Assembly: GCF_004348545.1 (NCBI RefSeq)
Contig: NZ_SMKL01000035.1
Coordinates: 1 to 63,241, forward strand
Length of the DNA: 63,241 nt
From: Jiangella ureilytica
GTDB taxonomy: Bacteria > Actinomycetota > Actinomycetes > Jiangellales > Jiangellaceae
Reading direction: 5' to 3'
The notes under the pieces are model-generated. The model was not told where the DNA came from. It worked only from the letters and a program-made list of their open reading frames with translations, and made no database searches. How positions within the stretch are numbered: the stretch's first letter is position 1; each line of letters starts with the position of its first letter. A program made the position numbers and the translations under genes. Positions 16,730-44,006 of the stretch are shown one piece after another.

Positions 16730-16748
16730 GATCCGGAGGGCGCTCGAC

Positions 16749-21291: not shown

Positions 21292-21304
21292 GTGAGCCTC
21301 CTCC

Positions 21305-21319
21305 TGTAATCAGATTACA
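21305..21319. promoter_or_regulatory. TetR-regulon operator 1 (TGTAATC palindrome)
   Basis: TGTAATCAGATTACA, a perfect 7-bp inverted repeat around one base, just upstream of the serine hydrolase start. An extra C...G pair extends it by one base each side. Confidence 0.8.
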
Positions 21320-21352
21320 GTCTGGCACCTCTGGTGCCGTCGCACCAGCCTA

Positions 21353-21367
21353 TGTAATCTGATTACA
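21353..21367. promoter_or_regulatory. TetR-regulon operator 2 (TGTAATC palindrome)
   Basis: TGTAATCTGATTACA, 33 bp from operator 1 and 31 bp upstream of the 183-aa gene. The pair of sites would control both divergent transcripts. Confidence 0.8.
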
Positions 21368-21398
21368 TCGGGAGTCGGCGGACCGGAAGGGGAGGCAC

Positions 21399-21950
21399 GT
21401 GCAGAACCAGGCGAACGAGCAGTCCGAGGACGTGGCGCAACTGCTGAAGCTGCACCGCGACTGGTACTTCTCGAACTACAACATCAACATCCCGCTGATG
21501 CGGACGGTCTTCCCGCCGAAGCAGGACCAGTTCCTGATGTTCAACCTCAACGACCACCCCTACTTCGGGGTCGACGACCTCGACGCGCTGTGGTCCTTCT
21601 ACGCCCGCACCGACCGGTGGGGGCTGTGCGAGGACCACGTCATGCGGGTCGACGTGGCGGGCGACATGGGCTACATCGTCTCCGAGGGCATCTATCCGTC
21701 CTGGGTCATCAAGGACGACGAGGGCAACCTGCTGCCCGAAGAGATCGACGCCACCTTCCGGTACCGCTCCACGGAGATCTACAAGCGCGACGACGGCGAG
21801 GGCGGCCGGGAGTGGAAGATGTGGCACTTCCACTGCTCGACGCGGCCCGATGACGACGCCGTCCCCGACGCCAAGACCGCCGAGGACAGCTCGCGCAGGC
21901 GGGGCCTCGGCAACACGCCCTACAGCCAGGGAACCCTGGTCGAGTACTGA
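21399..21950 (+). CDS. NTF2/SnoaL-like small protein, paralogue 1
   Basis: A 183-aa protein with no assigned function. It opens with LLKLHRDWYFSNYNINIPLMRTVFP, followed by FLMFNLNDHPYFGVDDL, ALWSFYARTDRWGLCEDHVMR and a C-terminal KMWHFHCSTRP. The layout (helix, then beta strands ending in W-x-HxH) fits the SnoaL/NTF2-like cone fold, which often binds or isomerises small hydrophobic substrates. It is about two thirds identical by eye to the protein at 34323-34898. Each is the first gene after a TGTAATC operator, suggesting both are strongly expressed parts of the pathway. Start: ATG is not visible; the GTG at 21399 has GGAAGGGGAGG upstream. Confidence 0.75.
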   Translation: MQNQANEQSEDVAQLLKLHRDWYFSNYNINIPLMRTVFPPKQDQFLMFNLNDHPYFGVDDLDALWSFYARTDRWGLCEDHVMRVDVAGDMGYIVSEGIYPSWVIKDDEGNLLPEEIDATFRYRSTEIYKRDDGEGGREWKMWHFHCSTRPDDDAVPDAKTAEDSSRRRGLGNTPYSQGTLVEY

Positions 21951-21953
21951 GCC

Positions 21954-23339
21954 GTGTCCGACGCGACGGGGCCGGCGCCCTGCGACCTGCTGCTGACCGG
22001 CGGCACCGTCGTCACCATGGACCCGTCGGCCGGCGTCATCGAGGACGGTGCCGTCGCCGTCGGCGGCGGACGGGTGACGGCGGTGGGCACTGCCATCGAC
22101 CTGGCCGGCCTGACGCCGTCGCGCACCGTGGACTGCCGCGGCGCCGTCGTCCTGCCGGGCCTGGTCGACACCCACACGCACCTGTACCAGGGCCTGGCCC
22201 GCAGCCTCGGCGAGGGCCGGCCGCTCTGGTCCTGGCTGACGGACTTCATGTGGCCCTACGCCGCCGCGCTGACCAGGGAGGATGCGCGGCTGGCGGCGCT
22301 GCTCGGCGCTGTCGAGGCGGCCCGGGCGGGGACCACCTCGCTGCTGGACCACCACTACGCCCCGGCGGATCCCGAGACGGTGCTCGCGGTCGCCGAGGCG
22401 GTCGAGGACGTCGGGCTGCGCGGCGTCGTCGCCCGCGGCATGGCGGGCACGCCGAGCGCGGTGGCGCGCGAGAACGGCCTCGCCGGCGGCCTGTTCGCCC
22501 ACCCCACCAGCGCGGAGATCGAGCTGACCCGCGACTGCATGACCGCGAGGCCGCCGGACAGCCGGGTCGCCGTCTGGCCCGGCCCGCACAACGTCACGTA
22601 CGCCGACCAGGCCCTGCTGCGGGCCTCGGCGGAGCTGGCCCGCGACGCCGGGACCGGCTGGCACACGCACTGCTCCTCCACTCCGCGCGACCCCGAGACG
22701 TACCGGCGCGCCTACGGCACCACCCCCGTCGCCTGGCTGCACGAGCAGGGGCTGCTGGGGCCGGGCGCCACGCTCGCCCACGGCATCCACCTGACCGACG
22801 CCGAGGTGCGCATGGTGGGCGAGACCGGCTCCGCAGTCGCACACTGCCCGGTGTCGAACCAGTACGGCGCCGACGGCGTGCTGCGGCTGCGTGAGCTGCG
22901 CGCGGCGGGCGCGGTCGTCGGGCTGGGGACGGACGGCGCCGCGTACAACCACCGCCAGGACCTGTTCGAGTGCATGAAGCAGGCCGTCCTGGTCCAGCGG
23001 CTGCACCGGCTGGATCCCGAGGCGGCGCACAGCCACGAGGCGCTGGCCCTCGCGACCCGCGAGGGGGCGCGGCTGCTCGGCATCGACGCGGGAGTGCTGG
23101 CGCCCGGGCGGCTGGCCGACCTCACGGTGGTCGGGCTCGACGCGCCGCACCTGACCCCGCACCACGACGTGCGGGCGACGCTCGTCTACGCGGCCCGCGG
23201 CTCCGACGTGCGCATGACGATCGTGGGCGGCGAGGTCGTGGTCGAGGACGGCCGCTGCACCCGGGTCGACGAGGACGCGATCTGCGCCGAGGCGCTCGAC
23301 CGGGCCCGTGCCGTGGTGCGCCGCGCCGGGATCGTGTGA
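21954..23339 (+). CDS. Amidohydrolase (TrzN / 8-oxoguanine deaminase-like)
   Basis: A 461-aa metal-dependent hydrolase of the ATZ/TRZ branch. The metal HxH is H74-x-H76 in VDTHTHLYQG; further ligands are in GWHTHCSST, LAHGIHL and LGTDGAAYN. The C-terminus returns to the small beta-domain (GVLAPGRLADLTVVGLDAPHL). Members deaminate or dechlorinate aromatic N-heterocycles, so a heterocycle amine or imine is the likely substrate. A GTG start at 21954 follows the previous stop by three bases. It is gene 2 of the operon starting at 21399. Confidence 0.88.
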   Translation: MSDATGPAPCDLLLTGGTVVTMDPSAGVIEDGAVAVGGGRVTAVGTAIDLAGLTPSRTVDCRGAVVLPGLVDTHTHLYQGLARSLGEGRPLWSWLTDFMWPYAAALTREDARLAALLGAVEAARAGTTSLLDHHYAPADPETVLAVAEAVEDVGLRGVVARGMAGTPSAVARENGLAGGLFAHPTSAEIELTRDCMTARPPDSRVAVWPGPHNVTYADQALLRASAELARDAGTGWHTHCSSTPRDPETYRRAYGTTPVAWLHEQGLLGPGATLAHGIHLTDAEVRMVGETGSAVAHCPVSNQYGADGVLRLRELRAAGAVVGLGTDGAAYNHRQDLFECMKQAVLVQRLHRLDPEAAHSHEALALATREGARLLGIDAGVLAPGRLADLTVVGLDAPHLTPHHDVRATLVYAARGSDVRMTIVGGEVVVEDGRCTRVDEDAICAEALDRARAVVRRAGIV

Positions 23340-23351
23340 GGAAGGACAGCC

Positions 23352-24644
23352 ATGAGCCGATCCGACGCCGTCCGCGCCATGATCGCGGACCGGCGCGACC
23401 TGCACGCCCACGCCGAGGCCGGGTGGTGCGAGGTGCGCACCGCCTCGCTGGTGGCCCGCCGGCTGGCCGGCCTCGGGTTCGCCGTCCGGGTGGGGCGCGA
23501 GGTGCTGGCCGCGGACCGCCCGGGCCTGCCGTCGCACGAGGAGCTGAAGGCGGCCTACCGCCGGGCGCTCGCCCACGGCGCCGACCCCGGGTTCGCCGAG
23601 CTCGTGCGCGACGGGTTCACCGGGGTGGTCGCGACGCTGGCGACCGGGCGGCCCGGCCCGACGGTGGCCCTGCGGTTCGACATCGACGCGAACTACGGGC
23701 ACGAGTCGGCCGATCCCGGGCACACCGCGCAGCGGGGCGGCTACCGCTCGCGCACCGACGGCGTGCACCACAGCTGCGGTCACGACGCGCACACCGCCAT
23801 CGGTCTCGGGGTGGCCCGGGAGATCGCCGCCGCCTCCGCCGCAGGCGAACCGGCCGGCGAGGTCCGGCTGGTCTTCCAGCCCGCCGAGGAGGGGCTGCGC
23901 GGCGGGCCGGCCATGGTGGCCGCCGGTGTGGTCGACGGCGTCGACGTGCTGCTCGGCTGTCACATCGGCGTCCAGGCGCGCGCGACCGGCGAGGTGATCG
24001 CCGGCTACCGGAGGATCCTGGCCAGCCACAAGTTCGACGCGCACTTCACCGGCCGCAACGCGCACGCCGGCATCTCGCCGCATGAGGGCCGCAACGCCGT
24101 CCAGGCCGCCGCGATCGCCGTCCAGAACCTGCTCGCGATCAGCCGGCACGGCGACGGCGAGACCCGGGTCAACGTCGGGACCGTCGAGGGCGGCGAGACG
24201 CGCAACTCGGTGCCGGCGCGCGCCGTCCTGCGGGGCGAGGTCCGCGCCGACGACGACGTCATCCTCGGCTACCTGCGCGACCGGGTCGGCGACGTCGTGC
24301 GCGGCGCCGCCGCCGTCGCCGGTGTCGCGGCCCGCATCGAGACGGCCGGGGGAGCGGCGGGCGCGGACAGCACCCCGGAGCTCGCGGCGGTGGTCGCGCG
24401 GGTGGCCGCCCGGGTCGACGGCGTCACCGTCGTGCGCGATGCCGCCGACTTCAAGGGGAGCGACGACATGAGCAGCTTCATGAACGCCGTCCAGGCCGCC
24501 GGCGGGCAGGCCGTCTACTTCGGTCTCGGGTCGCGCCTCGGCGACGTGCACCACGCGCCGTTCTTCGACGTCGACGACGACGCGCTGGTCATCGGCCGCG
24601 ACGTGTTCCTCGGCTGCCTGCGCGAGCTGGGCGTGCTCGGGTGA
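23352..24644 (+). CDS. M20 family amidohydrolase (AbgB-like)
   Basis: A 430-aa M20D-type metallohydrolase. Metal-site signatures: LRFDIDANYGHES, HHSCGHDAHTAIGLG and FQPAEEGLRGG; then the lid domain with HFTGRNAHAG and a C-terminal DVHHAPFFDVDDDAL. Proteins of this branch split amide bonds of acylated amino acids or p-aminobenzoyl-glutamate-like compounds. It follows the deaminase-like gene with a 12-base gap (GGAAGGAC before the ATG) and overlaps the next gene as GTGA. Inferred to hydrolyse an amide generated upstream in the pathway. Confidence 0.88.
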   Translation: MSRSDAVRAMIADRRDLHAHAEAGWCEVRTASLVARRLAGLGFAVRVGREVLAADRPGLPSHEELKAAYRRALAHGADPGFAELVRDGFTGVVATLATGRPGPTVALRFDIDANYGHESADPGHTAQRGGYRSRTDGVHHSCGHDAHTAIGLGVAREIAAASAAGEPAGEVRLVFQPAEEGLRGGPAMVAAGVVDGVDVLLGCHIGVQARATGEVIAGYRRILASHKFDAHFTGRNAHAGISPHEGRNAVQAAAIAVQNLLAISRHGDGETRVNVGTVEGGETRNSVPARAVLRGEVRADDDVILGYLRDRVGDVVRGAAAVAGVAARIETAGGAAGADSTPELAAVVARVAARVDGVTVVRDAADFKGSDDMSSFMNAVQAAGGQAVYFGLGSRLGDVHHAPFFDVDDDALVIGRDVFLGCLRELGVLG

Positions 24645-26011
24645 GCGGCGACACCGTTTTCCGCGGCGCGACGGCGGTACTGCCCGGCGGGCCGGTCCTC
24701 GCGGACGTCGTCGTCGGCGGCGGCGTCGTCACGGCCGTGGCGGCGCCTGGCACGCTGAGCGCCGACGAGGTCGTCGACGTCCGCGACAGGATCCTTCTGC
24801 CCGGCGCCGTCGATGTGCACGTGCACTTCCGCCAGCCCGGGTTCGAGCACAAGGAGGACTTCCGGACCGGCAGCGCCGCCGCCGCCTGCGGCGGGGTGAC
24901 GACGGTCTGCGACATGCCGAACACGCACCCGCCGGTGTCCAGCGCCGAGCGGTTCCGGGCCAAGCGCGACCTGGTCGAGGGCACGTCGCACGTCGACCAT
25001 GGGCTCTGGGCCGGCGGCACCGACCTGCCCGAGCTGGCCGCGATGGCCGGGCTCGGCGCCGTCGGGGTCAAGGTCTACCTGAATCGGTCGCACCGGGCCG
25101 ACGACCCGTACGCCGACGAGCTGTCGATGCCCGACGCCGGCACCCTGAGCACGCTGTTCCGGGCCTGCGCGAGCTGGGCGCTGCCGGTCGCGGTCCACGT
25201 CGCCGACCACGACCAGGAGGTCCGGCTGCGGGCGCGGCTGCGGGCGGCGAGCACGACGGACGCGCGGCTGGTGAGCCGGTCCTACCGCGGCGACGGCGTC
25301 CTCGACGCGCTCGCACGGGTGCTGGCCGCCGCGGCCGGCACCGGCTGCCGGGTGCACATCGCGCACGCCTCGCTCGCGCCGGTCGCCGCGCTCGACCGGA
25401 TCGACGCCGCGCGCCGGGCCGGCGTGCGCGTCACAGCCGAGTGCGGCCCGCCCGCGCTGCTCGAGGACGACCTCGACCGCCTCGGCGTCCTCGGGGTGCC
25501 GTTCGCCTTCCCGGCCGGCGACGCCGAGGCCTACTGGTCCGCGCTCGCCGACGGGCGAGTCGACCTGGTGGCCACCGACCACGCGCCGCACACGCGCCAG
25601 GACAAGGCGGCCGGGCTCGACGACGTCTGGGCCGCGCCGCCGGGCTACCCGGGCGTCGAGACCGTCCTGCCGCTGATGGTCGACGCCGTGCTGGCCGGGC
25701 GGCTGAGCTGGTCGCGCCTGGCCGAGCTGACCAGCGCCGCCCCGGCCCGGCTCTGCGGGCTCGGCGGCAAGGGCGCGATCACCCCCGGAGCCGACGCCGA
25801 CCTCGTCGTCGTCGACCCCGCCGCCACCACGACCGTCGACGCCGCCCGCCTGCACAGCCGGGCCGGCTGGTCGCCGTTCGACGGCCGCCGCCTGGCCGGC
25901 GCCGTCACCGCCACCTACCTGCGCGGACGCGCGATCGCCCGCGACGGCGAACTGCTGCCCGGCCCGCCGGCCGGGCGGTTCCTGACCCCGGAAGGACGCG
26001 CGAGGCCGTGA
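24641..26011 (+). CDS. Dihydroorotase-like cyclic amidohydrolase
   Basis: A 456-aa amidohydrolase of the dihydroorotase/hydantoinase group, which opens cyclic amides or imides. Metal ligands appear in DVHVHFRQPGFEHKEDF, with a candidate carboxylated lysine in VGVKVYLNRS, and further histidines in VAVHVADHD and IAHAS; the aspartate is in ATDHAPHT. The C-terminal GKGAITPGADADLVVVDP is characteristic. GTG start overlaps the previous stop (GTGA, 24641-24644). The window encodes no pyrimidine biosynthesis operon, so this is a catabolic paralogue rather than pyrC. Confidence 0.88.
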   Translation: MSGDTVFRGATAVLPGGPVLADVVVGGGVVTAVAAPGTLSADEVVDVRDRILLPGAVDVHVHFRQPGFEHKEDFRTGSAAAACGGVTTVCDMPNTHPPVSSAERFRAKRDLVEGTSHVDHGLWAGGTDLPELAAMAGLGAVGVKVYLNRSHRADDPYADELSMPDAGTLSTLFRACASWALPVAVHVADHDQEVRLRARLRAASTTDARLVSRSYRGDGVLDALARVLAAAAGTGCRVHIAHASLAPVAALDRIDAARRAGVRVTAECGPPALLEDDLDRLGVLGVPFAFPAGDAEAYWSALADGRVDLVATDHAPHTRQDKAAGLDDVWAAPPGYPGVETVLPLMVDAVLAGRLSWSRLAELTSAAPARLCGLGGKGAITPGADADLVVVDPAATTTVDAARLHSRAGWSPFDGRRLAGAVTATYLRGRAIARDGELLPGPPAGRFLTPEGRARP

Positions 26012-27006
26012 GGATCGGACTGCACTACAGCTTCCAGGTGGGACCGGACGAGTCCGGCCGGCTGGTCGTCGAGCGCGGGCTGCGCGACATCGCCGCCGCC
26101 GACGCCCGCGGATTCTCCTCGGTCGTCTTCGCCGAGCACCACTTCCTCGACGACGGCTGGCTGCCGCGGCCGATGCTGCTGGCCAGCGCCGCGGCTGCGG
26201 TGACGTCGCGGATGCGGATCGGCACCGACGTCGTCATCCTGGCGCTGCACCACCCGGTCGCCGTCGCCGAGGAGGCCGCCGTCCTCGACCTGATGTCGGG
26301 CGGCCGCGCGATCCTCGGGGTCGGGCTCGGCTGGGTCGAGGCCGAGTTCGACGGCTTCGGCGTGCCGTTCCGCCGCCGGGCCAGGATCTACCAGGAGTCC
26401 CTCGGGCTGGTCCGCCGGCTGCTGGCGGGCGAGGTGGTCGACGGCGACGGCCACTACACGTTCCGCGGCGCGCGGGTGCGTCCGCTGCCCGTCAACCCAG
26501 AGGGCGTTCCGCTGTGGATGGGTGCCCTCGAGGACCCCGGCGTCCGGCGCGCGGCGGCCGGTGGCGACGCCTGGGTGATGCCGCCCGGCCACCCGATCGA
26601 CCGGCTACGGCGGCAGCTCGCGCTGTTCCGCGAGACCCGCGAGGAGGCCGGGCTCGCGCCGGCGACCGAGCAGCCGCTGCGCCGCGAGGCCTTCGTCGCT
26701 CAGACCGACGAGCGGGCCTGGGAGCAGTTCGCACCGGGGATCCGGCACGAGTACGGCACCGTGTACCGGCCCCTGCACCCGACCTATCCCGACGACGACT
26801 CCCTCGACAACCTGAGGCGCTGGGCCGACGGGCGCTTCCTCATCGGCTCGCCGGAGACGGTGGCCGCCGACCTGCGCCGCTACGAGGACGAGCTCGGGGC
26901 CACCGAGTGCCTGGTCCGCTTCCAGCTCCCCGGCGTCGGCGAGGAAGCGGTCGCCGACGCGCTGGACGGTTTCGCCGACACCATCTCACTGCTGGACGAC
27001 GCCTGA
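26008..27006 (+). CDS. LLM-class flavin-dependent oxidoreductase 1
   Basis: A 332-aa TIM-barrel flavoenzyme of the bacterial luciferase-like family (FMN or F420 dependent). Landmarks are SSVVFAEHHFLDDG, MRIGTDVVILALHHPVAVAEE and GGRAILGVGLGWVEAEF, ending with FLIGSPETVAADLRRYEDELG. Such enzymes oxygenate or desaturate small organic substrates and can open heterocyclic rings (RutA is a relative). GTG start overlaps the dihydroorotase-like stop. Its 3' end overlaps the convergent isoaspartyl dipeptidase-like gene by 21 bp. Confidence 0.88.
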   Translation: MRIGLHYSFQVGPDESGRLVVERGLRDIAAADARGFSSVVFAEHHFLDDGWLPRPMLLASAAAAVTSRMRIGTDVVILALHHPVAVAEEAAVLDLMSGGRAILGVGLGWVEAEFDGFGVPFRRRARIYQESLGLVRRLLAGEVVDGDGHYTFRGARVRPLPVNPEGVPLWMGALEDPGVRRAAAGGDAWVMPPGHPIDRLRRQLALFRETREEAGLAPATEQPLRREAFVAQTDERAWEQFAPGIRHEYGTVYRPLHPTYPDDDSLDNLRRWADGRFLIGSPETVAADLRRYEDELGATECLVRFQLPGVGEEAVADALDGFADTISLLDDA

Positions 27007-28173
27007 CGCCGGCTCGTACATCGAGCGGACCAGGGCCCTCCCATGGGCGACCAGCTGCTGGCCGCGGGCGAACACGTCGGCGATCCGCAGGTCATCGTCG
27101 ATGATGAGCAGGTCGGCGTCGCCACCCACCCGGACCCGGCCCTTGCGCTCCAGCCCGAGCGCCCTGGCCGGGTTGCTGGTGACGAACGAGAGCGCCCGCT
27201 CCAGCGGCTGGTCATGGTCGCGCACCAGCTCGGCCACCGTGTCCCAGAGCCAGCCAAGGCTCTTCTCGTAGACGTCGCGGCTGCCGTCGGCCAGCAGGAT
27301 CGGCACGCTGGCGTTGCCGTCGGTCGTCATCGTCACCAGGCTCGGGTCGACCCCGGCCGCCAGCGTGCGCGCGATCGCCTCGGCAGCCGGCACCGCACGC
27401 GGGTGCCCGAACGTAGGCGTCAGGATCGGGTTGAAGTCGACGAAGCCACCCGCGGCCGCGACGTCGAGCACCGCCTGCATCGTGTGCTCGGTGTAGTTGC
27501 CGTGCGTCGCCTGGAACCGGTGCGCCGGCACGCCGGACGTGCGCATGGCGTGCAGGAACTGCCCGGCCGGGTCGGCGGACTGGCCGAGGTGGGCGTGCAG
27601 CAGGCAGGCCTTGCCCGTCGCGCCGGCCAGGTAGTGCAGCTGCGCCGCCAGCTCGACCAGCTCCTCGTCGCGGAACGGCGTCGCCTTGACCTCGCCCAGC
27701 GCCACCTTCACCCCGATGAACTTCTCGATCGTGAACAGGTCGCCGAGCAGCGAGCCGGTGACGGTGCGGAACGGGCGCTGGAACCCGCCGGCCATGGCGT
27801 AGGCCGAGATGCCCTCGCTCTCCAGCGCGTACGTCTTCGCCAGCAGCCCCTCGAGGTTCTTGGCCACCATGTCCAGCCCCGGCGGCGCGACCACGGTGGT
27901 GATGCCCGCGAGCGCCAGCTCACCCACCCACAGCTCGGGGATCCGCGAGGCGTAGCCCTCGTTGCCGCCGCCGCCGATGACGTGCAGATGGCCGTCGACG
28001 AGACCGGGCACGACTCGTCGTCCCGCCGCGTCCACCTCGACGACGTCCAGGCCGCCGAGGTCCAGGCGCTCCTCGATCGCGACGATGCGCCCGCCCGCCA
28101 GCAGGAGGTCGCGGACGCCGACGTCCTCGGGCGCGTGGACGTGGCCGTTGCGGATGGCGCTGAGCTCGGTCAC
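26986..28173 (-). CDS. Isoaspartyl dipeptidase-like amidohydrolase
   Basis: A 395-aa M38 amidohydrolase. Features of IadA: GHLHVIGGGGNEGYASRIPEL with the metal HxH, bridging lysine candidate in IGVKVALGEVKATPF, HAHLGQSADPAGQ, THGNYTEHT and MTTDGNAS with the catalytic aspartate. IadA enzymes cut beta-aspartyl dipeptides, so the pathway may produce an N-acyl or beta-aspartyl-like amide. It is on the minus strand, sharing the TGTAATC operator at 28216 with the divergent amidohydrolase. Confidence 0.87.
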   Translation of the reverse strand: MTELSAIRNGHVHAPEDVGVRDLLLAGGRIVAIEERLDLGGLDVVEVDAAGRRVVPGLVDGHLHVIGGGGNEGYASRIPELWVGELALAGITTVVAPPGLDMVAKNLEGLLAKTYALESEGISAYAMAGGFQRPFRTVTGSLLGDLFTIEKFIGVKVALGEVKATPFRDEELVELAAQLHYLAGATGKACLLHAHLGQSADPAGQFLHAMRTSGVPAHRFQATHGNYTEHTMQAVLDVAAAGGFVDFNPILTPTFGHPRAVPAAEAIARTLAAGVDPSLVTMTTDGNASVPILLADGSRDVYEKSLGWLWDTVAELVRDHDQPLERALSFVTSNPARALGLERKGRVRVGGDADLLIIDDDLRIADVFARGQQLVAHGRALVRSMYEPASGVVQQ

Positions 28174-28215
28174 GGTGACCTCCCGGGGTTGACGCGGCGC
28201 TCACTGAGCTGGGAA

Positions 28216-28230
28216 TGTAATCAAATTACA
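28216..28230. promoter_or_regulatory. TetR-regulon operator 3 (TGTAATC palindrome)
   Basis: TGTAATCAAATTACA between two divergent amidohydrolase genes. One base of the left half differs from the right half (TGTAATC/AATTACA). Confidence 0.75.
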
Positions 28231-28254
28231 TACCAGCGCGCAAGGGAGTCCGAG

Positions 28255-34265: not shown

Positions 34266-34283
34266 TCAGGACCCGCCCTCGTA

Positions 34284-34298
34284 TGTAATCTGATTACA
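34284..34298. promoter_or_regulatory. TetR-regulon operator 4 (TGTAATC palindrome)
   Basis: TGTAATCTGATTACA, 19 bp after the PrpD stop and 25 bp before the second NTF2-like gene. It marks a new promoter for the transport half of the cluster. Confidence 0.8.
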
Positions 34299-34322
34299 CA
34301 TCTCCACGGAAGGAGGCGCCGC

Positions 34323-34898: not shown

Positions 34899-34905
34899 GC
34901 CGACG

Positions 34906-35829: not shown

Positions 35830-36791
35830 GCAACCGCGTCGGATTCGTCCTGGGTAGCACGTTCCACCCCAGCATGCTGGTGCCCGTCGCCCGCGCGGTC
35901 GAGGAGCACGGGTTCGCGAGCATCTGGTCCACCGAGGACTACTTCGCCACCGCCGGCGTCGCCGGCGCGGCGACCGTCCTCGCGGCGACCGAGGAGATCC
36001 GGGTCGGCACCGGCGTGGTCTCCGTCTACGCGCGTCACCCCGGGCTGCTGGCCATGGAGGCGGGCACCCTCGCCTCGGTGCACCCCGGCCGGTTCGTCCT
36101 GGGTATCGGCGTCGGCGGCAGCTGGTGGCTCGACCAGCAGGGCATCGAGCACCGTCGTCCCCTCGGAGCCGTGCGCGGCACCGTCGAGGCGCTCCGGGCG
36201 CTCTGGGCCGGCGAGACGCTCACCGGCGACCACGGCGGGTTCACCTTCGAGGGCATCCACCTCGAGTACCCGCCGCCGGAGCCGCCGCCGATCCACCTCG
36301 GGGCGACCGGTCCGAAGATGACCGCACTGGCCGGCGAGATCTGCGACGGCCTGGTCCTGTCGGTCTTCAGCAGCCCCGCCTTCGTCCGCGTCGAGCGCGA
36401 CATCGTGGCCGCCAACGGCGGCGCGGACACCCCGATCACGACGTTCGCCTTCCTGTCCGTCGCCGAGACCACGGCCGAGGCGCGGGTCCGGATCCGGCCC
36501 CTGCTCGGCAGCTTCCTCGCCGACGGCGAGAGCACGGCGATGACCGACGCGATCGGGATCACCGAAGAGCTACGCGCGCTCGCGCGGACGGGCGGTCCCG
36601 AGGGACTGGCCGCCGACATGCCCGACGAGTGGATCGACCAGCTGAGCGTCTGCGGCGACGTGGACACCTGCGCCGGCCAGATCCAGGCCCTGCTCGCCGC
36701 CGGCTCGGACGAGGTCGCCCTCGCTCCCATTCACGTCGAGTCCCTTCTCGGGGACATCAAGGACCTCGGCACGGCCATCGCCGCCGGCTGA
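35826..36791 (+). CDS. LLM-class flavin-dependent oxidoreductase 2 (F420-type)
   Basis: A 321-aa TIM-barrel oxidoreductase. HGFASIWSTEDYFAT, EEIRVGTGVVSVYARHPGLLAMEA and VLGIGVGGSWW match the F420-dependent LLM branch. C-terminal CGDVDTCAGQIQALLAAGSDEVAL is typical. It differs from the first LLM enzyme in the cluster, so two separate oxidation steps are likely. Coupled by GTGA to the DUF1028 gene, and followed 20 bp later by the ABC binding protein. Confidence 0.87.
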   Translation: MSNRVGFVLGSTFHPSMLVPVARAVEEHGFASIWSTEDYFATAGVAGAATVLAATEEIRVGTGVVSVYARHPGLLAMEAGTLASVHPGRFVLGIGVGGSWWLDQQGIEHRRPLGAVRGTVEALRALWAGETLTGDHGGFTFEGIHLEYPPPEPPPIHLGATGPKMTALAGEICDGLVLSVFSSPAFVRVERDIVAANGGADTPITTFAFLSVAETTAEARVRIRPLLGSFLADGESTAMTDAIGITEELRALARTGGPEGLAADMPDEWIDQLSVCGDVDTCAGQIQALLAAGSDEVALAPIHVESLLGDIKDLGTAIAAG

Positions 36792-36811
36792 CCTTCACCA
36801 GGAGACATCCC

Positions 36812-38449
36812 ATGGCGCACAGAAGTCGATTGCTGGGAGCGTTCGTCGCCTCCGGCCTGTTCGTGGCCGCGGCCTGCGGCAGCGGCCCCGCTTCGGACGA
36901 CGGTACCGGAGGCGGCGACGGCGGCAGCGCTGCCGTCGACGAGCTCGTCGTCGCCTACAGCCAGGACATCGACACCCTCGACCCGCACCAGTTCAAGACC
37001 GACGCCGGCTACGGCGTGGTGGGGAACATCTACGGCACCCTGCTGCAGGAGAGCTACACCGACGGCGGCGACGGCGTCCTGTCCTACGCCGGTGAGAGCG
37101 CGCCGTACCTCGCCGAGTCGGCGACCTGGGACGAGACACAGACCACGCTGACCTTCGAGCTGAAGGAGGGCCAGCAGTTCGCCGGCGGCGAGCCGGTGAC
37201 GGCCGAGGACGTGGTCTGGTCGCTGCAGCGGGCGCTGTCCGACGTCGGGTACGTGCAGGCCATCGGCCAGTGGCTCAACATCACCGACGCCGCCACCGAC
37301 ATCGTCGCCACCAGCGACACGACGGTCGAGCTGCACGTCACGCACTACTCGCCGCTGATCGAGCAGTTCCTCGCGTTCCAGATCTTCGCCATCATCGACA
37401 AGTCGGCCGTCGAGGCGCAGGCCGCCGCCGACGACCCGTGGGGTGCGGGCTGGCTCGCCGCCGAGGCGACCGCGTCGGGCCCCTACGTCGTCGAGAGCCG
37501 GGTGCCGGGGCAGAGCATGACGCTGGCCAAGAACCCCGAGTTCACGGCCACCGACCTCGGCGACGCGCCGGAGCGCATCGTCGTCCAGAGCATGCCGGAC
37601 CCGCAGCAGGCGTTCCTCGCGCTGCAGAACGGCGCCGTCGACGTCATCTTCGGGATGACCCCCGACACCGCCGAGGCGCTCGAGCAGAGCGACGGCCTGG
37701 AGCTCTACGACCTCGAGTACAGCCTGGTCGCCTACGTCGGCTTCAACTACCAGGACCCGGTGCTGCAGGACGTGCGCGTCCGGCAGGCGCTGTCGTACCT
37801 GATGCCCTACGACGCGCTGCGCGAGGACGTCATGAAGGGCTACGCCGGCGCGGCCTACGGCGCCGTGCCGTACCCGATGCGCGACTCGCTGGACGAGACC
37901 GGCGAGCAGGTGGCGTACCCCACCGATGTCGAGCGGGCGCAGGAGTTGCTGGCCGAGGCCGGCTACGAGCCGGGGGAGCTGTCGCTGACGCTGTCGGTGC
38001 CGGCGAGCGACGAGTCGCTGAGCCAGTCCGCCGTCTTCATCCAGAGCGCGCTCCGCGACGGTGGCGTCGAGGTCGAGGTCAACGAGATGAGCGACGCCGA
38101 CTACAACGAGAACCTCGGGAGCATGCAGATGTTCCTCGACTCCTGGTACTCGTGGGGGCAGGACTCCGTCTACCAGATGTTCTTCCTGCTCACGACCGGG
38201 GTGTTCACCAACTACACCAACTTCAGCAACCCCGAGGTCGACGAGCTGGTCCGGCAGGCCATGGCGACCGCCGATCCGGACGAGCGGCGCGCGCTGTCGC
38301 AGCGGGCCCAGCAGGTGATCATCGACGAGGCTCCCTGGGCGTTCCTGTTCACCCGCGACTACCTGGTCGGGACGCGCGAGGGGGTGACGGGCGTGACCCA
38401 CGCCAACGACGCCAACCTGCGCTTCGATCAGCTGCGGGTCACGAACTGA
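36812..38449 (+). CDS. Family 5 solute-binding lipoprotein (Opp/Dpp type)
   Basis: A 545-aa secreted binding protein. Signal peptide of about 21 residues with lipobox VAAAC, so C22 would be lipidated and membrane-anchored outside. Mature protein starts with a GTGGGDGGS linker and has ELVVAYSQDIDTLDPHQFKTD, VTAEDVVWSLQRAL, FVGFNY-like YVGFNYQDPVLQDVRVRQAL and C-terminal HANDANLRFDQL, all usual in SBP_bac_5. Two further permease and two ATPase genes follow. Ligands in this family are peptides, nickel or glycosides; the neighbours suggest an amide or ureide. Confidence 0.93.
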   Translation: MAHRSRLLGAFVASGLFVAAACGSGPASDDGTGGGDGGSAAVDELVVAYSQDIDTLDPHQFKTDAGYGVVGNIYGTLLQESYTDGGDGVLSYAGESAPYLAESATWDETQTTLTFELKEGQQFAGGEPVTAEDVVWSLQRALSDVGYVQAIGQWLNITDAATDIVATSDTTVELHVTHYSPLIEQFLAFQIFAIIDKSAVEAQAAADDPWGAGWLAAEATASGPYVVESRVPGQSMTLAKNPEFTATDLGDAPERIVVQSMPDPQQAFLALQNGAVDVIFGMTPDTAEALEQSDGLELYDLEYSLVAYVGFNYQDPVLQDVRVRQALSYLMPYDALREDVMKGYAGAAYGAVPYPMRDSLDETGEQVAYPTDVERAQELLAEAGYEPGELSLTLSVPASDESLSQSAVFIQSALRDGGVEVEVNEMSDADYNENLGSMQMFLDSWYSWGQDSVYQMFFLLTTGVFTNYTNFSNPEVDELVRQAMATADPDERRALSQRAQQVIIDEAPWAFLFTRDYLVGTREGVTGVTHANDANLRFDQLRVTN

Positions 38450-38483
38450 TCCGCCGGTCCGGCCGAGAGCGAGGGAGGACGCC

Positions 38484-39506
38484 ATGCTGAGGACGACCGG
38501 GAAGCGCGCCGGTGTCGCGCTCGTCAGCATCCTCGGCGTGGCCGTCCTGACCTTCTTCATCACCCAACTGCTGCCCGGCGACCCGGCCCGCATCGCCGCG
38601 GGACAGTACGCCTCCGAGGAGCAGGTCGCCGACGTGCGCGCGAAGTACGGCCTCGACCAGTCGGTGCCTGCACAGTTCGCGCAGTACATGGGCGACTTCT
38701 TCCGGATGGACCTCGGCACCTCGATCCGCACCGACCAGCCGGTGCGCGACGAGCTGACCAGCCGGCTGCCGGCGACGCTCGAGCTCGGCCTGACGGCGCT
38801 GCTGATCGCCGTGCTGCTGGGCGTCGGGCTGGGCGTGACCGCCGCGGTGCACCGGTACCGGATCGGCGACCGGCTGGTCCAGGTCTTCGTGGTGCTCGCG
38901 TCGGCGACGGCGGTGTTCTGGATCGCGCTGGTGGCGATCACGACCCTGGTCAACGGGTGGGGCATCTTCACCAGCCCGACGGGACGGCTGCCGCGCGGCT
39001 TCGCCCCGCCCGAGCACGTGACCGGTCTCTACGTGGTGGACGCGCTGCTCGCCGGCGACCCCGCGACGGCGGGGGCGGCGCTGCGCACGCTGCTGCTGCC
39101 GGCCCTCCTGCTGGGCGTCCTTGCGTCGCCGTCCATCGTGAAGATCGTCCGATCCGCGACCATCCGGGCGCTGGAGTCCGACTTCGCGCGGACCTCGCGC
39201 TCCTTCGGGTATCCGGCCCGCTCGATCCTGTTCCAGGACGGGCTGCGCAACTCGCTGCTGCCGGTGATCACCAACGTCGGCCTGGTGGCCGGCTTCGTGC
39301 TGGCCGGCGGCGACGTCATCATCGAGCAGCTCTTCGCCTGGCCCGGCATCGGCGGGTACGCCTACTCGTCGCTGCAGGAGAACGACCTCTTCGCCCTGCG
39401 CGGGTACGTCATCGCCATCGGGGTCGCCTACGTCCTCATCAACACCGTGCTCGAGTTCGTCTACGGCTGGGTCGATCCGCGCGTGAACCTGGCGGAGGGG
39501 AGCTGA
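38484..39506 (+). CDS. ABC permease, DppB type
   Basis: A 340-aa inner-membrane permease with about six segments. N-terminal LVSILGVAVLTFFITQLLPGDP is the DppB hallmark, followed by a loop (QYASEEQVADVRAKYGLDQSV) and an EAA-loop FARTSRSFGYPARSIL. Follows the binding protein with GAGGGAGG ahead of the ATG. Confidence 0.92.
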   Translation: MLRTTGKRAGVALVSILGVAVLTFFITQLLPGDPARIAAGQYASEEQVADVRAKYGLDQSVPAQFAQYMGDFFRMDLGTSIRTDQPVRDELTSRLPATLELGLTALLIAVLLGVGLGVTAAVHRYRIGDRLVQVFVVLASATAVFWIALVAITTLVNGWGIFTSPTGRLPRGFAPPEHVTGLYVVDALLAGDPATAGAALRTLLLPALLLGVLASPSIVKIVRSATIRALESDFARTSRSFGYPARSILFQDGLRNSLLPVITNVGLVAGFVLAGGDVIIEQLFAWPGIGGYAYSSLQENDLFALRGYVIAIGVAYVLINTVLEFVYGWVDPRVNLAEGS

Positions 39507-39508
39507 GC

Positions 39509-40357
39509 ATGGCCGTCGTCGACGCCGGCGCCGCCCTGCGCGGCAACCTCGTCTCCCGGCTCCGGGTGGGCAACCCCGCCGCGGTGGTCGCCTTCGCGGT
39601 GCTCGGGACGATCCTGACCCTCGGCATCGTCGTCCCGTTCGTCGCCGGCAGCGGCGACGTGGCCCAGGAGTACGACGGGCTGCTGCCGCCGTCGTTCGAC
39701 CATCCCTTCGGCACCGACCGGTTCGGCCGCGACGTCTTCCTGCGCTGCATGGCCGCGGCGCGCATCGACATCGCGCTGGGGCTGGCCGTGGCGGTCGCGG
39801 TGCTGCTCGTCGGCTCACTGATCGGGGCGGTCAGCGCCACGTTCGGGCGGGGCGTCGACGCGGTGGTCATGCGGGCCACCGACGTGCTGCTGGCCTTCCC
39901 GGGCGTGGTCCTGGCGCTGGTCATCACGGCGTCGCTGGGGAAGAACCCCTGGTACGCCGCCATCGCGGTGGTCATCGCGTTCATCCCGCTGCTGGTGCGG
40001 CTCGCGCGGTCGAAGGCGCTCGAGGTGCGCTCGGCCGACTACATCGCGGCTGCCCGGCTGAGCGGCGCCAGCACCTGGCAGATCGCGACCCGGCACGTGC
40101 TGCCGAACTCGTTCAAGTACCCGTTCGTGCAGTCGACGCTGGTCGCGTCATGGGCGATCCTCGACTTCGCGGCGCTCTCCTTCCTCGGCGTCGGCGTGCA
40201 ACCACCCGACGCCGAGTGGGGCGCGATGATCGCCGAGGGGGTCGGCGACAACCTGCTGGGCTCGTGGTGGCCGTCGTTCTTCCCGGGCCTGATGATCCTG
40301 CTGACGGCGGCGTCGTTCCAGGTCATCGGCGACTGGCTGGACCGGAGGCTGCGATGA
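39509..40357 (+). CDS. ABC permease, DppC type
   Basis: A 282-aa permease. FDHPFGTDRFGRDVFLRCMA is the DppC signature and the EAA-loop reads ADYIAAARLSGASTWQIATRHVLPNS. About six membrane segments. Its ATG lies two bases after the DppB stop and its TGA overlaps the next ATG. Confidence 0.92.
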   Translation: MAVVDAGAALRGNLVSRLRVGNPAAVVAFAVLGTILTLGIVVPFVAGSGDVAQEYDGLLPPSFDHPFGTDRFGRDVFLRCMAAARIDIALGLAVAVAVLLVGSLIGAVSATFGRGVDAVVMRATDVLLAFPGVVLALVITASLGKNPWYAAIAVVIAFIPLLVRLARSKALEVRSADYIAAARLSGASTWQIATRHVLPNSFKYPFVQSTLVASWAILDFAALSFLGVGVQPPDAEWGAMIAEGVGDNLLGSWWPSFFPGLMILLTAASFQVIGDWLDRRLR

Positions 40358-41178
40358 GCCTGCTGACCGTGCGGGGCCTGAGCATTCAGACCCGGACCGG
40401 CGTCTCCCTGGTACGCGACCTCTCCCTCGACGTGGGCGCGGGCGAGGTGGTCGGCATCGTCGGCGAATCCGGGTCGGGCAAGACGATGACCGCGCTGTCG
40501 CTGCTCGGGCTGCTGCCCGACGGCGTCCACGTGTCGGCCGGCGAGGCCGAACTGGAGGGACGGCGGTTCCTCGACGGCCCGCGCATGCTCGCCCGGCCGA
40601 ACGCCACGATGATCTTCCAGAACCCGACGGCCGCGCTGAACCCGACGATGCGCATCGGCGCCCAGCTGGTCCGGCTGCTGCGCTTCCTGGACCGCTCGGG
40701 CACGGACGGCTCGGCCGGGCGTCGGCGTGGTGACGTACGCGAGCGCGCGGCCGCGCTCGTCTCGTCGGTGGGCATCGCCGACCCGGCCGCCGTGCTCGGC
40801 CGCTACCCGCACCAGCTGTCCGGCGGCATGAACCAGCGGGTCATGATCGCGATGGCGATCGCCGCCCGGCCGAGCCTGCTCGTGGCCGACGAGCCCACCA
40901 CCGGCCTCGACGTGACCGTGCAGGCCCAGATCCTGGACCTGATCAGGGCCACCGTCGCCCAGCACGGCATCGGGGTCCTGTTCGTCTCGCACGACATGGG
41001 CGTCATCGCCCAGATGTGCCAGCGGGTCGCCGTCATGTACGACGGCGAGGTCCGCGAGTTCGCCGCCGTCGACGACATCTACCACCGTCCTGGCGACGCC
41101 TACACCCGCGAGCTGCTCGCCTCGGCGAGCGACCACCCGCGCCCCGAGGAGGTGGCCGATGGAACTCGTGCTGGCTGA
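40354..41178 (+). CDS. ABC transporter ATP-binding protein, DppD type
   Basis: A 274-aa ATPase. Walker A GESGSGKTM, Q-loop FQNPTAALNP, signature LSGGMNQR, Walker B LLVADEPTTGLD and switch SHDMG are intact. The usual C-terminal cysteine-rich Fe-S-like tail of OppD/DppD is reduced. Its last 20 bases overlap the next ATPase gene in another frame. Confidence 0.92.
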   Translation: MSLLTVRGLSIQTRTGVSLVRDLSLDVGAGEVVGIVGESGSGKTMTALSLLGLLPDGVHVSAGEAELEGRRFLDGPRMLARPNATMIFQNPTAALNPTMRIGAQLVRLLRFLDRSGTDGSAGRRRGDVRERAAALVSSVGIADPAAVLGRYPHQLSGGMNQRVMIAMAIAARPSLLVADEPTTGLDVTVQAQILDLIRATVAQHGIGVLFVSHDMGVIAQMCQRVAVMYDGEVREFAAVDDIYHRPGDAYTRELLASASDHPRPEEVADGTRAG

Positions 41179-42100
41179 CATCGAGGTCGTCTACGGCAAG
41201 CGCACCCGCAACCACGCCGTCCGAGGCGTGAGCCTGCGGGTTCGCCGGGGCGAGACCCTCGCCGTCGTCGGCGAGTCCGGCAGCGGCAAGACCACCATCG
41301 CCAAGGTCGCGGCCGGTCTGCAGAAGGCGACCTCGGGTACCGTCGCCTGGCAGGCGACGGGCGACGGCGGTGTGGGTGGCGGCCCGGGCGGTAGCCCGGC
41401 GCGCCGGCAGCGCGTGCACATGGTCTTCCAGCACCCGGTGCAGTCGCTCGACCCCTCGTGGCGCATCCGTCGCAGCGTCAAGGAACCGCTGCGCTACCTG
41501 GGCATGGCCGACGACGAGGCCGAGCGGCTGGTCCGCCGGCTGATCGCCGAGGTCGGCCTCGACGCGCAGATCCTGGACCGCTACCCGAGGGAGGTTTCCG
41601 GCGGGCAGGCGCAGCGGGTGGCGGTCGCCCGGGCGCTGGTCGCCGATCCGGAGATCGTCATTCTCGACGAGCCGACCGCGAGCCTCGACCAGACCGTGCG
41701 CGGGCGGATCCTCACGCTCCTGGCCGACCTGCAGGTGCGCACCGGCGTCGGCTACCTGATGATCACCCACGACATCTCCAGTGTGCGGCGCCTCGCGACC
41801 CGGATCGCCGTCATGTACCGCGGGTTGATCGTGGAGAGCGGCCCCGCTGCCGCCGTCCTCGAGGACCCGCGGCACCCCTACACGCAGGCGCTCATCTCAG
41901 CCGTGCCGGTCGCCGACCCGCGGGTGCGGTGGGACGGCGTCGTCGCCCTGCCCCGTCACCCGGACGGCACCCTCGCCGTCACGTCCTGCCCCGTGCCGGG
42001 GTCGTGTCACGAGCACGGCCCCGGACTGCACGAGGTCGGCCCCGACCACGTGGCCGGCTGCACGAAGGCCGTCGACCCCCAGAAAGCAGCGACGACGTGA
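41159..42100 (+). CDS. ABC transporter ATP-binding protein, DppF type
   Basis: A 313-aa ATPase with GESGSGKTT, FQHPVQSLDPSWR, signature VSGGQAQR, Walker B ILDEPTASLD and switch THDIS. It ends with a cysteine-bearing tail (SCPVPGSCHEHG). It completes the importer. The stop overlaps the next gene as GTGA, so transporter and hydrolase are produced together. Confidence 0.92.
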   Translation: MELVLADIEVVYGKRTRNHAVRGVSLRVRRGETLAVVGESGSGKTTIAKVAAGLQKATSGTVAWQATGDGGVGGGPGGSPARRQRVHMVFQHPVQSLDPSWRIRRSVKEPLRYLGMADDEAERLVRRLIAEVGLDAQILDRYPREVSGGQAQRVAVARALVADPEIVILDEPTASLDQTVRGRILTLLADLQVRTGVGYLMITHDISSVRRLATRIAVMYRGLIVESGPAAAVLEDPRHPYTQALISAVPVADPRVRWDGVVALPRHPDGTLAVTSCPVPGSCHEHGPGLHEVGPDHVAGCTKAVDPQKAATT

Positions 42101-43296
42101 TCGACCTGATCGACCTGCGCCGGACCCTCCACCAGAACCCGGAGCTCGCCCTCGACCTGCCGGTGACCCGGCAGCTGCTGGTCGACGCCCTGGAGCCGCT
42201 CGGGCTGACGATGCACACCAGCGCGAGCTGCTCGTCGCTCGCCGTCGTCGTGCCCGGTGCCGAGCCCGGCCCGACCGTGCTGCTGCGGGCGGACATGGAC
42301 GGCCTTCCCGTCGTCGAGGAGTCGGGCGAGGAGTTCAGCTCGACCAACGGCAACATGCATGCCTGCGGCCACGACCTGCACATGGCGGGCCTGGTCGGGG
42401 CTGTCCACCAGCTGCACAGCCGGCGCGAGGAGTTCACCGGCGACGTCCTTGCCGTCTTCCAGCCGGGTGAGGAGGGTGCCGGCGGTGCCGCATTGATGAT
42501 CAGCGAGAAGGCGCACCTGCTCACCGGCCAGAAGCCGATCGCGTCGTACGGCCTGCACGTGCTGTCCTTCGCCGAGACGGGCGTGTTCTACTGCCGCGAG
42601 GGCGAGGTCATGGGCGCGGCCATGCTGTTCGAGCTGGAGCTGCTCGGCCGCGGCGGCCACGCGGCCCGGCCGCACACGGCGCTCGATCCGATCTCGACCG
42701 CCGCGCTCGTGGTGCAGGCGATCCAGACCTTCGTCGCGCAGAACAGCGCCCCCGGCGACCCGATCGTCGTGACGGTGGGCTCGATCGTCGCGGGTACCGC
42801 GGCCAACGTCATCCCCAGCCGGGCGCTGCTCAAGGTCAGCCTGCGCGCCGCCAGTCACGAGACCGCGCGGGCCGCGTACGAGAAGATCCGCGGCATCGCG
42901 ACGGCGATCGCGGTGGCCTACGGCCTGGGGCTGCGGGCCGAGATCGGCCCGGACCTCGGCCCCACCGTCACCGACGCCGAAGGAGTGGCCCTGGTCCGTC
43001 GGAGCGTGGCGGATCTCTATGGCGCCGCCCGCTACCGCGAGCTCGTCGTGCCCGAGATGATCTCCGAGGACTTCTCCCAGTTCCTCGAGGAGACCGGCGG
43101 CGCCTTCGTGCTGGTGGGCGCCGCCGTCGGGGACCCTTCGCATCCTCTTCCGACGAACCACTCTCCCGAAGCGCGTTTCGATGACTCCGTGGTGCCTGAT
43201 ATGTCTAGCCTGTTGGCGGACCTCGCCATCAGGCGACTCAACGCGGCTCGCCGCGGCGACGAACGGGACGGCATGCAGACGACGGACTCGAAGTAG
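42097..43296 (+). CDS. M20-family N-acyl amino acid amidohydrolase
   Basis: A 399-aa metallohydrolase. Motifs: LLRADMDGLPV, MHACGHDLHMAGLVG (cysteine and histidine ligands), FQPGEEGAGGA and SYGLHV. It is closer to IAA-amino acid/hippurate-type hydrolases than to the other two M20 enzymes. The GTG start overlaps the ATPase stop. Located directly after the importer, it may act on the incoming compound first. Confidence 0.9.
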   Translation: MIDLIDLRRTLHQNPELALDLPVTRQLLVDALEPLGLTMHTSASCSSLAVVVPGAEPGPTVLLRADMDGLPVVEESGEEFSSTNGNMHACGHDLHMAGLVGAVHQLHSRREEFTGDVLAVFQPGEEGAGGAALMISEKAHLLTGQKPIASYGLHVLSFAETGVFYCREGEVMGAAMLFELELLGRGGHAARPHTALDPISTAALVVQAIQTFVAQNSAPGDPIVVTVGSIVAGTAANVIPSRALLKVSLRAASHETARAAYEKIRGIATAIAVAYGLGLRAEIGPDLGPTVTDAEGVALVRRSVADLYGAARYRELVVPEMISEDFSQFLEETGGAFVLVGAAVGDPSHPLPTNHSPEARFDDSVVPDMSSLLADLAIRRLNAARRGDERDGMQTTDSK

Positions 43297-43299
43297 GCC

Positions 43300-43950
43300 A
43301 TGGAATCCAGCAGTGGGCCGGCGAAGAAGCCGGCCGCCCGGTCCGGCGGCAAACCGGCGGACAAGGCGCCGGCGCGCGCGCAGGTCAACAACATCAAGGC
43401 CGAGGAGCTGCTCGGCCGCATCATCGAGATCGTCCGCAGCCAGGGTCTGGCCGGCTTCTCCCTCGACAACCTCGCGCCCCAGCTGGGCACCAGCAGCCGC
43501 ATGCTCGTCTACTACTTCGGTAGCAAGGACGAGTTGCTCGGCCGCATCGTCTACACGCTCCGCAACGACATCGTCACCCAGCTCGAGAACGAGCCGGTCG
43601 GCACCATCACCGATGCCGTGGACCGCTGGTGGAGTCACTACCAGGCCAATCCCGCCGACATGCAGTTCTTCTTCCACCTGACGTCGCGGAGCTTTGAGGA
43701 GCCTGACAAGTTCCAGGAGTTCTCCAGCACGGCGGTCGGCCAGTGGTCGGCGTACTTCGTGCGCAGCCTCGAGGGCCACGTCCGGTCCGAGCAGGAGGCC
43801 GAGGCGATCGCCCGTCTCGTGCTCGCAACCGTCCGCGGTCTCATGGCCGACCTGCTCATCACCGCGGACCGGCAGCAGGCCGAACGTTCACTCGCGGTCT
43901 TCAAGGAGCTGCTCGAGGCAAGGCTGGCGGCGTCGGCGAAATCTCTGTAA
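43300..43950 (+). CDS. TetR-family regulator, likely controller of the TGTAATC regulon
   Basis: A 216-aa protein. The first 32 residues are rich in Ala, Lys and Pro, then IIEIVRSQGLAGFSLDNLA, PQLGTSSRMLVYYFGSKDEL is the TetR helix-turn-helix. The remainder is an all-helical ligand-binding region without recognisable subfamily. Its TAA stop lies inside a TGTAATC palindrome, and four more copies precede the other operons, so it probably represses all of them and responds to a pathway metabolite. Whether this regulator binds these sites is inferred from position. Confidence 0.88.
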   Translation: MESSSGPAKKPAARSGGKPADKAPARAQVNNIKAEELLGRIIEIVRSQGLAGFSLDNLAPQLGTSSRMLVYYFGSKDELLGRIVYTLRNDIVTQLENEPVGTITDAVDRWWSHYQANPADMQFFFHLTSRSFEEPDKFQEFSSTAVGQWSAYFVRSLEGHVRSEQEAEAIARLVLATVRGLMADLLITADRQQAERSLAVFKELLEARLAASAKSL

Positions 43951-43960
43951 TCTGATTACA
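43946..43960. promoter_or_regulatory. TetR-regulon operator 5, overlapping the tetR stop codon
   Basis: TGTAATCTGATTACA. The regulator's TAA stop is bases 3-5 of the palindrome. It sits 47 bp before the alpha/beta hydrolase start and would drive that gene. Confidence 0.8.
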
Positions 43961-44006
43961 GAATCGCTGGTGGCTGCCTGACCGACCTCGGCAAGGAGTG
44001 GGCGAC

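Follow-up and report, generated by a model that had tools for sequence, protein, structure and literature searches.

We analysed a 63,241-nucleotide stretch of the genome of the soil actinomycete Jiangella ureilytica (contig NZ_SMKL01000035.1; hereafter the window), in which a gene cluster of 24.6 kb (20185-44816) carries five copies of a 15-bp palindrome. These palindromes are very probably the operators of the TetR-family regulator encoded within the same cluster (43300-43950), which, judging from the sequence, would act as a local repressor released by a ligand. The 15-mer TGTAATCNGATTACA was matched exactly at 21305, 21353, 34284 and 43946, and with one mismatch at 28216, where the copy reads TGTAATCAAATTACA; apart from these five, no copy with up to four mismatches was found in the window. 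The first-pass annotation, which had listed five palindromes at these positions, was therefore right about all five places, but the copy at 28216 is imperfect. In 100 dinucleotide shuffles of the window, allowing three mismatches, the mean number of matches was 0.20 and the largest 1. Across the whole genome (6,345,964 bases, up to two mismatches), we observed the five cluster sites and no others; the pattern read backwards, used as a control, gave one forward and one reverse match. Assuming 72% GC, TGTAATNNNATTACA is expected about 0.002 times in the genome. On the strength of the shuffles, the genome-wide uniqueness, the four-mismatch search and this expected count, a chance origin of the five sites was rejected, as the annotation had argued for such conserved sites in GC-rich DNA. 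It had also pointed out that sites widespread in unrelated promoters would speak against a dedicated regulon; the genome holds no further sites, and exact copies of the 15-mer occur in 4 of 393 genomes of the class, which are the four cluster-bearing Jiangella genomes.

The 23 genes of the cluster leave only 384 bp of intergenic DNA in total, and in the window all four gaps longer than 40 bp carry sites, whereas gaps of 34 bp or less carry none. Two sites lie in the divergent gap 21292-21398, one in 28174-28254 and one in 34266-34322; the fifth starts within tetR and extends into the gap 43951-44006. In the four species that carry the cluster, the sites precede start codons by -1 to 46 bp, a position that looks like that of a repressor. 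Each presumed transcription unit would be headed by a site: the leftward serine hydrolase gene; module A (21399-27006); a leftward amidohydrolase gene (26986-28173) divergent from module B (28255-34265); module C (34323-43950), which encodes a SnoaL-like protein, a DUF1028 protein, a luciferase-like monooxygenase (LLM) family oxidoreductase, a solute-binding protein, an ATP-binding cassette (ABC) importer, an M20 amidase and the TetR; and the alpha/beta hydrolase gene. Module C ends with tetR, which would therefore itself be under site 4. This layout agrees with the earlier statements that every site precedes or separates operons and that the last one overlaps the tetR stop codon, whose TAA (43948-43950) forms bases 3-5 of the palindrome. 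The proposed limits of the cluster also stand: both end genes, for the serine hydrolase and the alpha/beta hydrolase, are closely preceded by a site in all four species, and relatives of the alpha/beta hydrolase (36-38% identical) adjoin SnoaL-like, DUF1028 and LLM genes in Mycobacterium branderi and Embleya. Because the sites lie in gaps of the cluster and nowhere else in the genome, the single TetR encoded there most likely switches the whole set together.

An ortholog of the TetR was found in 4 of 12 Jiangella genomes (G000, which contains the window, G004, G008 and G010), the other three proteins being 95, 85 and 83% identical; the next best matches did not exceed 34% identity. Among named relatives, matches were found in J. 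endophytica KE2-3 (95%) and J. muralis DSM 45357 (85%). With up to one mismatch, exactly five sites are present in each of these four genomes and none in the other eight Jiangella, and a single stray site (G045) turned up in the 87 non-Jiangella genomes among the 99 searched. All 23 proteins were matched in one stretch and in the same order in each of the three relatives, the cluster proteins being 77-96% identical across the four species, and the five sites hold the same five places in all of them. Sites 1 and 2 are always 48 bp apart, and the distance from site to start codon varies only between 30 and 31 bp at site 2, 23 and 24 bp for the rightward gene of site 3, and 23 and 25 bp at site 4. 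All 20 copies have the half-sites TGTAAT and ATTACA unchanged, every departure falling within the three middle bases. Pairwise identity across species is 0.90-1.00 for the sites and 0.28-0.84 for the 15 bp on either side, save to the right of site 1 (1.00), within the shared divergent promoter. A second palindrome, GGCACCTCTGGTGCC (21324-21338), sits between sites 1 and 2; GTCTGGCACCTCTGGTGC (within 21320-21338) is identical in the four species, and the last base of the second palindrome differs in one. It is perhaps the site of a further regulator.

At the one-way sites 1, 2, 4 and 5, the centre base read in the direction of transcription is T in 16 of 16 copies from the four species; at the divergent site 3 it is A, C, A and G. 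The consensus of the -10 box is TANNNT, and a T at the centre, as this consensus requires, suggests that the operator contains a -10 box, TAATCT (bases 3-8). Given that there are only four independent sites and that the -35 boxes are unconvincing, we go no further than to infer this box. The search for -35 boxes gave a four-of-six match at spacing 17 at site 4 in all four species, and TTGACG at site 3 in two species, for a shifted and itself poor -10 (GAATGT); at sites 1, 2 and 5, two to three of six bases matched. The search as a whole thus did not establish promoters. In the three relatives, the ATG of the hydrolase gene starts on base 15 of site 5, its A being the last base of the palindrome, and the gap between tetR and this gene is 9 bp. 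If TAATCT is the -10 box, this ATG would lie at about +1 and the mRNA would be leaderless. The extra sequence present in the window displaces this start to the GTG at 44007. The alternative, 43998, is less likely, since it is with the codon corresponding to 44007 that the gene begins in the three relatives. It is unlikely that the TetR, bound to these sites, activates transcription or halts it within operons like a roadblock instead of occluding promoters. A roadblock is conceivable at site 5, which in the three relatives lies within an apparently continuous tetR-hydrolase operon; however, sites this close to start codons are too far downstream for a usual activator, and the invariant T at the centre of one-way copies fits a -10 box inside the site.

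The regulator itself was recognised by its DNA-binding domain (TetR_N, 26.5 bits, above the Pfam gathering score of 24); its putative ligand-binding C-terminal domain scored 27.1 bits with TetR_C_6 (cut-off 27). Its AlphaFold model is all helical, with low confidence (mean predicted local distance difference test, pLDDT, 58.6), and was given no weight in the argument on binding. It scored below the cut-offs of the BetI models (TIGR03384, 40.5 bits, cut-off 201.3; NF001978, 33.1 bits, cut-off 118) and of the RutR model (TIGR03613, 20.1 bits, cut-off 368). Scans of all 23 genes against Pfam or NCBIfam, in which neither SnoaL-like protein had a significant hit, revealed no other regulator.

That this TetR binds the sites is supported by the putative operators of its sisters, which are regulators of other actinomycetes, 27-34% identical to it, plus five loci found through the TetR of locus L010. 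Among the matches listed, 37 were returned with a locus, leaving out the orthologs (L006-L009) and the repeats L075 and L078. In 25 of these 37 loci, a perfect GTA(N3)N1-2(N3')TAC palindrome, always with N2, lies within -500 to +20 of the tetR match; the other 110,881 bases hold two. Sorted by recognition helix, it was found in 22 of 23 HRM loci, in three of five with SSRM, SKRM, SDRM or SGRM, in neither of two with SPRM and in none of seven without RM; here L060 and L061 (SPTTLVHHF) and L081 (VTTTTLVHHF) were counted as lacking RM and L017 (NHRM) as HRM, and the HRM counts are not independent events because many of these loci are close relatives. The HRM loci with a site have GTACCA-NN-TGGTAC near the tetR start (L011, L013-L018, L020-L025, L054, L057, L059, L062 and L065-L069, with GTACCG in L059), so that the inner triplet is CCA in 21 of 22 and CCG in one; two copies are present in six of the 22. 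The triplet is CCG in the KRM locus and GCG both in the DRM locus and in L010, where TGTAGCGTTCGCTACA lies at -27. The helix of L010, SSRMLIYYF, is nearly that of the window TetR, SSRMLVYYF, and this is the only site found with nearly the same helix.

The palindrome of the window, TGTA-ATC-N-GAT-TACA, corresponds to GTA-N7-TAC. With the HRM subgroup defined here by an HRM helix and GTA-N8-TAC, the SSRM protein of the window would be related to it without being a member, and its palindrome appears to combine the outer half-site of its kin with an inner triplet and a spacing of its own. In a tally of palindromes with 7-bp arms and a centre of 1-2 bp in 32 loci (112,391 bases), made after TGTA had been noticed, TGTA was the commonest head (25, against 7 for the next); the control heads ATGT..ACAT numbered 11 and are presumably the same palindromes one base out. 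The second TetR of this group in the J. ureilytica genome (HRM; L069, contig 168) has TGTACCAAATGGTACA before its gene, and as this palindrome differs, the two TetRs are not expected to share sites. A homolog on the megaplasmid of Cupriavidus metallidurans CH34, with the helix SHRMLIYYF, has TGTACCACATGGTACA 1.2 kb past the start of the match.

From these comparisons we put forward a joint reading, which we hold tentatively and judge slightly more apt to fail in some part than to stand as a whole. The TetR subgroup would read a common outer GTA..TAC, and the residue before Arg-Met (H, S, D or K) together with its neighbours would set the inner triplet and the spacing; the Jiangella operator would double as the -10 box TAATCT, and the hydrolase mRNA of the relatives would be leaderless. 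HRM would then go with CCA (once CCG) and 8 bp, KRM with CCG, DRM and one SRM with GCG, and the Jiangella SRM with ATC and 7 bp. The co-varying recognition helices and palindromes form a natural data set on how TetR helices choose DNA.

Several observations weigh against the TetR as the repressor acting at these sites. The spacing between GTA and TAC is 8 bp in the sister operators and 7 bp here. The locus L076 (SSRMLIYYF, its TetR 74% identical to that of L010) and the SGRM locus L080 have no such palindrome near the gene, nor has the HRM locus L055, where TGTACCACCTGGTACA occurs elsewhere in the locus; because of these three, the rule linking helix and operator is incomplete. The flanks between sites 1 and 2 are conserved too (0.84-1.00). 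In G004, the first and second genes of module A are separated by 154 bp without a site, and the gaps between the convergent genes after module A lack one in the three relatives (485, 118 and 681 bp), so that only in the window do all larger gaps strictly carry sites. Finally, a genome has either the entire cluster with tetR or none of it, and co-occurrence in 4 of 12 genomes therefore cannot by itself tell the TetR from another regulator. Still, it is decidedly unlikely that the palindromes are operators of another regulator, either the Lrp/AsnC protein encoded at 16120-16659 or an unlinked one, and that the TetR has other targets. The Lrp/AsnC gene adjoins the cluster in all four species, the IorAB gene beside it is confined to the same four of the 12 Jiangella genomes, and a 15-mer palindrome is possible for an Lrp-type protein; against this, neither the gap between these two genes nor any other part of the window holds an additional site at up to four mismatches, the outer TGTA..TACA is common to the palindromes beside sister TetR genes, and the TetR is the only regulator found in the site-marked region, where the operon ending in tetR has a site. 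A spread of the repeats by recent duplication or a mobile element, with no regulatory role, has a negligible probability: five near-identical copies within 23 kb might suggest it, but different sites share the 15-mer core only, their flanks differ, each of the five lies just ahead of a gene start and has kept its place while the cluster proteins diverged across the four species, and longer shared flanks and copies away from promoters were looked for and neither was seen.

With the TetR as a ligand-released repressor, a dimer would sit on each TGTAAT-N3-ATTACA site, which would overlap the core promoter of each unit or lie just downstream of it, and without substrate the whole 24.6-kb catabolic and uptake set would be off. 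A small molecule of the pathway would bind the C-terminal domain and release the TetR, so that all units would be turned on at once; the likeliest candidates are the cyclic amide or N-heterocycle that is imported and an intermediate formed early. Induction would also refill the repressor, as tetR stands at the end of the operon under site 4, a negative autoregulation that would make the response self-limiting. The candidate regulon would be self-contained, with a sharply defined operator set and an ordinary kind of switch. Having a proposed regulator, its candidate operator and the whole putative regulon for an uncharacterised 23-gene catabolic cluster makes the ligand and the substrate approachable through the release of the TetR.

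The gene content (Table 1) suggests that a cyclic amide or N-heterocycle is taken up and degraded by hydrolysis. The hydantoinase-like cyclic amidohydrolases scored below the cut-offs of the NCBIfam families shown. For the SnoaL-like protein, the predicted structure has a mean pLDDT of 35.7 and a search of PDB sequences gave two matches, with E values of 0.88-0.89; its Embleya homolog scored 32.2 bits against SnoaL_3, above the cut-off of 22.

Table 1. Genes of the cluster 20185-44816 and the candidate operator sites among them
Feature	Position	Strand	Basis or remark
Serine hydrolase, beta-lactamase fold family	20185-21291	-	PF00144
Operator site 1 (candidate)	21305-21319	-	TGTAATCTGATTACA read leftward; ends 13 bp before serine hydrolase start (19-20 bp in three relatives)
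Operator site 2 (candidate), module A	21353-21367	+	31 bp before start codon; 48 bp from site 1
SnoaL-like small protein A	21399-21950	+	No Pfam family; SnoaL_3 12.7 bits (cut-off 22); 70% identical to 34323-34898
Amidohydrolase, deaminase/TRZ-ATZ kind	21954-23339	+	Below cut-offs of the 25 NCBIfam families shown
M20 amidohydrolase	23352-24644	+	TIGR01891 270.4 bits (cut-off 153.75)
Cyclic amidohydrolase, dihydroorotase/allantoinase-like	24641-26011	+	Pfam/NCBIfam scans
LLM monooxygenase A	26008-27006	+	Profile scans
Amidohydrolase like beta-aspartyl peptidase	26986-28173	-	TIGR01975 287 bits, below cut-off 331.25
Operator site 3 (candidate), divergent units 26986-28173 (-) and 28255-34265 (+)	28216-28230	.	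Single mismatch; start codons 42 bp and 24 bp away
Amidohydrolase, deaminase kind, paralog	28255-29667	+	Profile scans
Phosphoribosyltransferase-like protein	29664-30254	+	Scores below cut-offs
Hydantoinase/carbamoylase-family amidase	30251-31540	+	NF006771 405.5 bits (cut-off 399); TIGR01879 378.8 bits (cut-off 204)
Hydantoinase/allantoinase-like cyclic amidohydrolase	31543-32946	+	Profile scans
MmgE/PrpD family protein	32943-34265	+	Profile scan
Operator site 4 (candidate), module C including transporter and tetR	34284-34298	+	24 bp before start codon
SnoaL-like small protein B	34323-34898	+	SnoaL_3 14.9 bits, below cut-off 22
DUF1028 protein	34906-35829	+	Profile scan
LLM oxidoreductase B	35826-36791	+	Profile scans
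Family 5 solute-binding protein	36812-38449	+	Profile scan
Peptide/nickel-type ABC importer, two permeases and two ATPases	38484-42100	+	Profile scans
M20 amidohydrolase	42097-43296	+	Profile scans
TetR-family regulator, proposed repressor	43300-43950	+	TetR_N 26.5 bits (cut-off 24); helix TSSRMLVYYF
Operator site 5 (candidate), over tetR stop codon, before alpha/beta hydrolase	43946-43960	+	46 bp before GTG at 44007
Alpha/beta hydrolase, last regulon gene	44007-44816	+	Profile scans (one run from 43998)

The Rut cluster contains a TetR-type regulator, amidohydrolases, an LLM monooxygenase and an alpha/beta hydrolase. The Jiangella cluster resembles it, and pyrimidine- and hydantoin-type clusters in general, in this combination and in the probable cyclic-amide chemistry. 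It differs from Rut in the low score against the RutR model given above and against that of RutD (46.1 bits, cut-off 238.5), and in having a peptide/nickel-type importer and DUF1028, MmgE/PrpD and SnoaL-like genes. As a switch, the TetR shares with its HRM[LI] sisters (27-34% identity) the GTA..TAC outer half-sites near the regulator gene and differs in the inner ATC and the spacing of 7, where theirs are CCA (once CCG) and 8. The mycobacterial MftR is described as having one 27-bp site, T-N2-GGCA-N5-TGCC-N2-A, as its operator (PMC8728441). Like MftR as described there, the Jiangella protein probably has a TetR fold, adjoins the genes that it would govern, has a putative palindromic promoter operator conserved in related species and would be an effector-controlled repressor; unlike that single 27-bp operator, its 15-mer is present in five copies, which mark out the units of a 23-gene cluster.

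Relatives of five genes of the cluster group together elsewhere, which speaks for counting the alpha/beta hydrolase at 44007 among the pathway genes. On plasmid pJCM12687 of M. branderi, relatives of the SnoaL-like protein (36%), the alpha/beta hydrolase (38%), the DUF1028 protein (41%) and the M20 protein (41%) are encoded in one row; the LLM protein of this row shares only 26% identity with LLM A, and about 5 kb away there is a better match, 39% identical to LLM B. The order in Embleya is alpha/beta hydrolase (36%), SnoaL-like (37%), LLM (44%) and DUF1028 (42%), then an M20 protein (by Pfam only). Genes of the PucR type, resembling regulators of purine catabolism, lie near this module in Embleya (L071, 23876-25558) and M. 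branderi (L072, 16187-17821), where Jiangella has the TetR. The same TetR was sought in the M. branderi module and rejected, the TetR beside it being unmatched by that of the window in tblastn, and no palindrome like TGTAATC was found in nine M. branderi locus stretches or in Embleya. The Embleya locus has an unlike palindrome, CATCGTTACTGTAACTATG (L071, 17099-17117), some 27 bp upstream of the match to the alpha/beta hydrolase (17144); it is probably close to the promoter or start of this gene.

In the open-access papers searched, we did not find, with the strings tried, the 15-mer, whether as exact string, consensus forms or shorter core, nor the palindrome forms of the sisters; DUF1028 was not mentioned in them, and broader searches returned nothing recognised as this cluster. 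This kind of switch is itself well known.

Outside the cluster, region 16120-20198 holds the Lrp/AsnC gene and, divergent from it, a gene for a fused indolepyruvate ferredoxin oxidoreductase; the latter shares the distribution of the cluster (4 of 12 Jiangella genomes) but has no TGTAATC site. At 764-5183, a response regulator gene adjoins an open reading frame of 1088 amino acids matching RNase III-like, double-stranded RNA-binding and HATPase_c domains, an unusual combination; this large protein gave no match in PADLOC. The minus strand at 8610-12720 carries defence genes like those of the cyclic oligonucleotide-based antiphage signalling system (CBASS), namely an oligonucleotide cyclase (11671-12720), a TRIP13-like ATPase (10239-11588) and a NucC-like nuclease (9466-10230), alongside an unassigned reading frame of 296 amino acids (8610-9500, minus strand). 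The GC content of positions 1-15000 is 60-67%, against 70-76% elsewhere in the window, as would fit a defence island of foreign origin next to the catabolic cluster.

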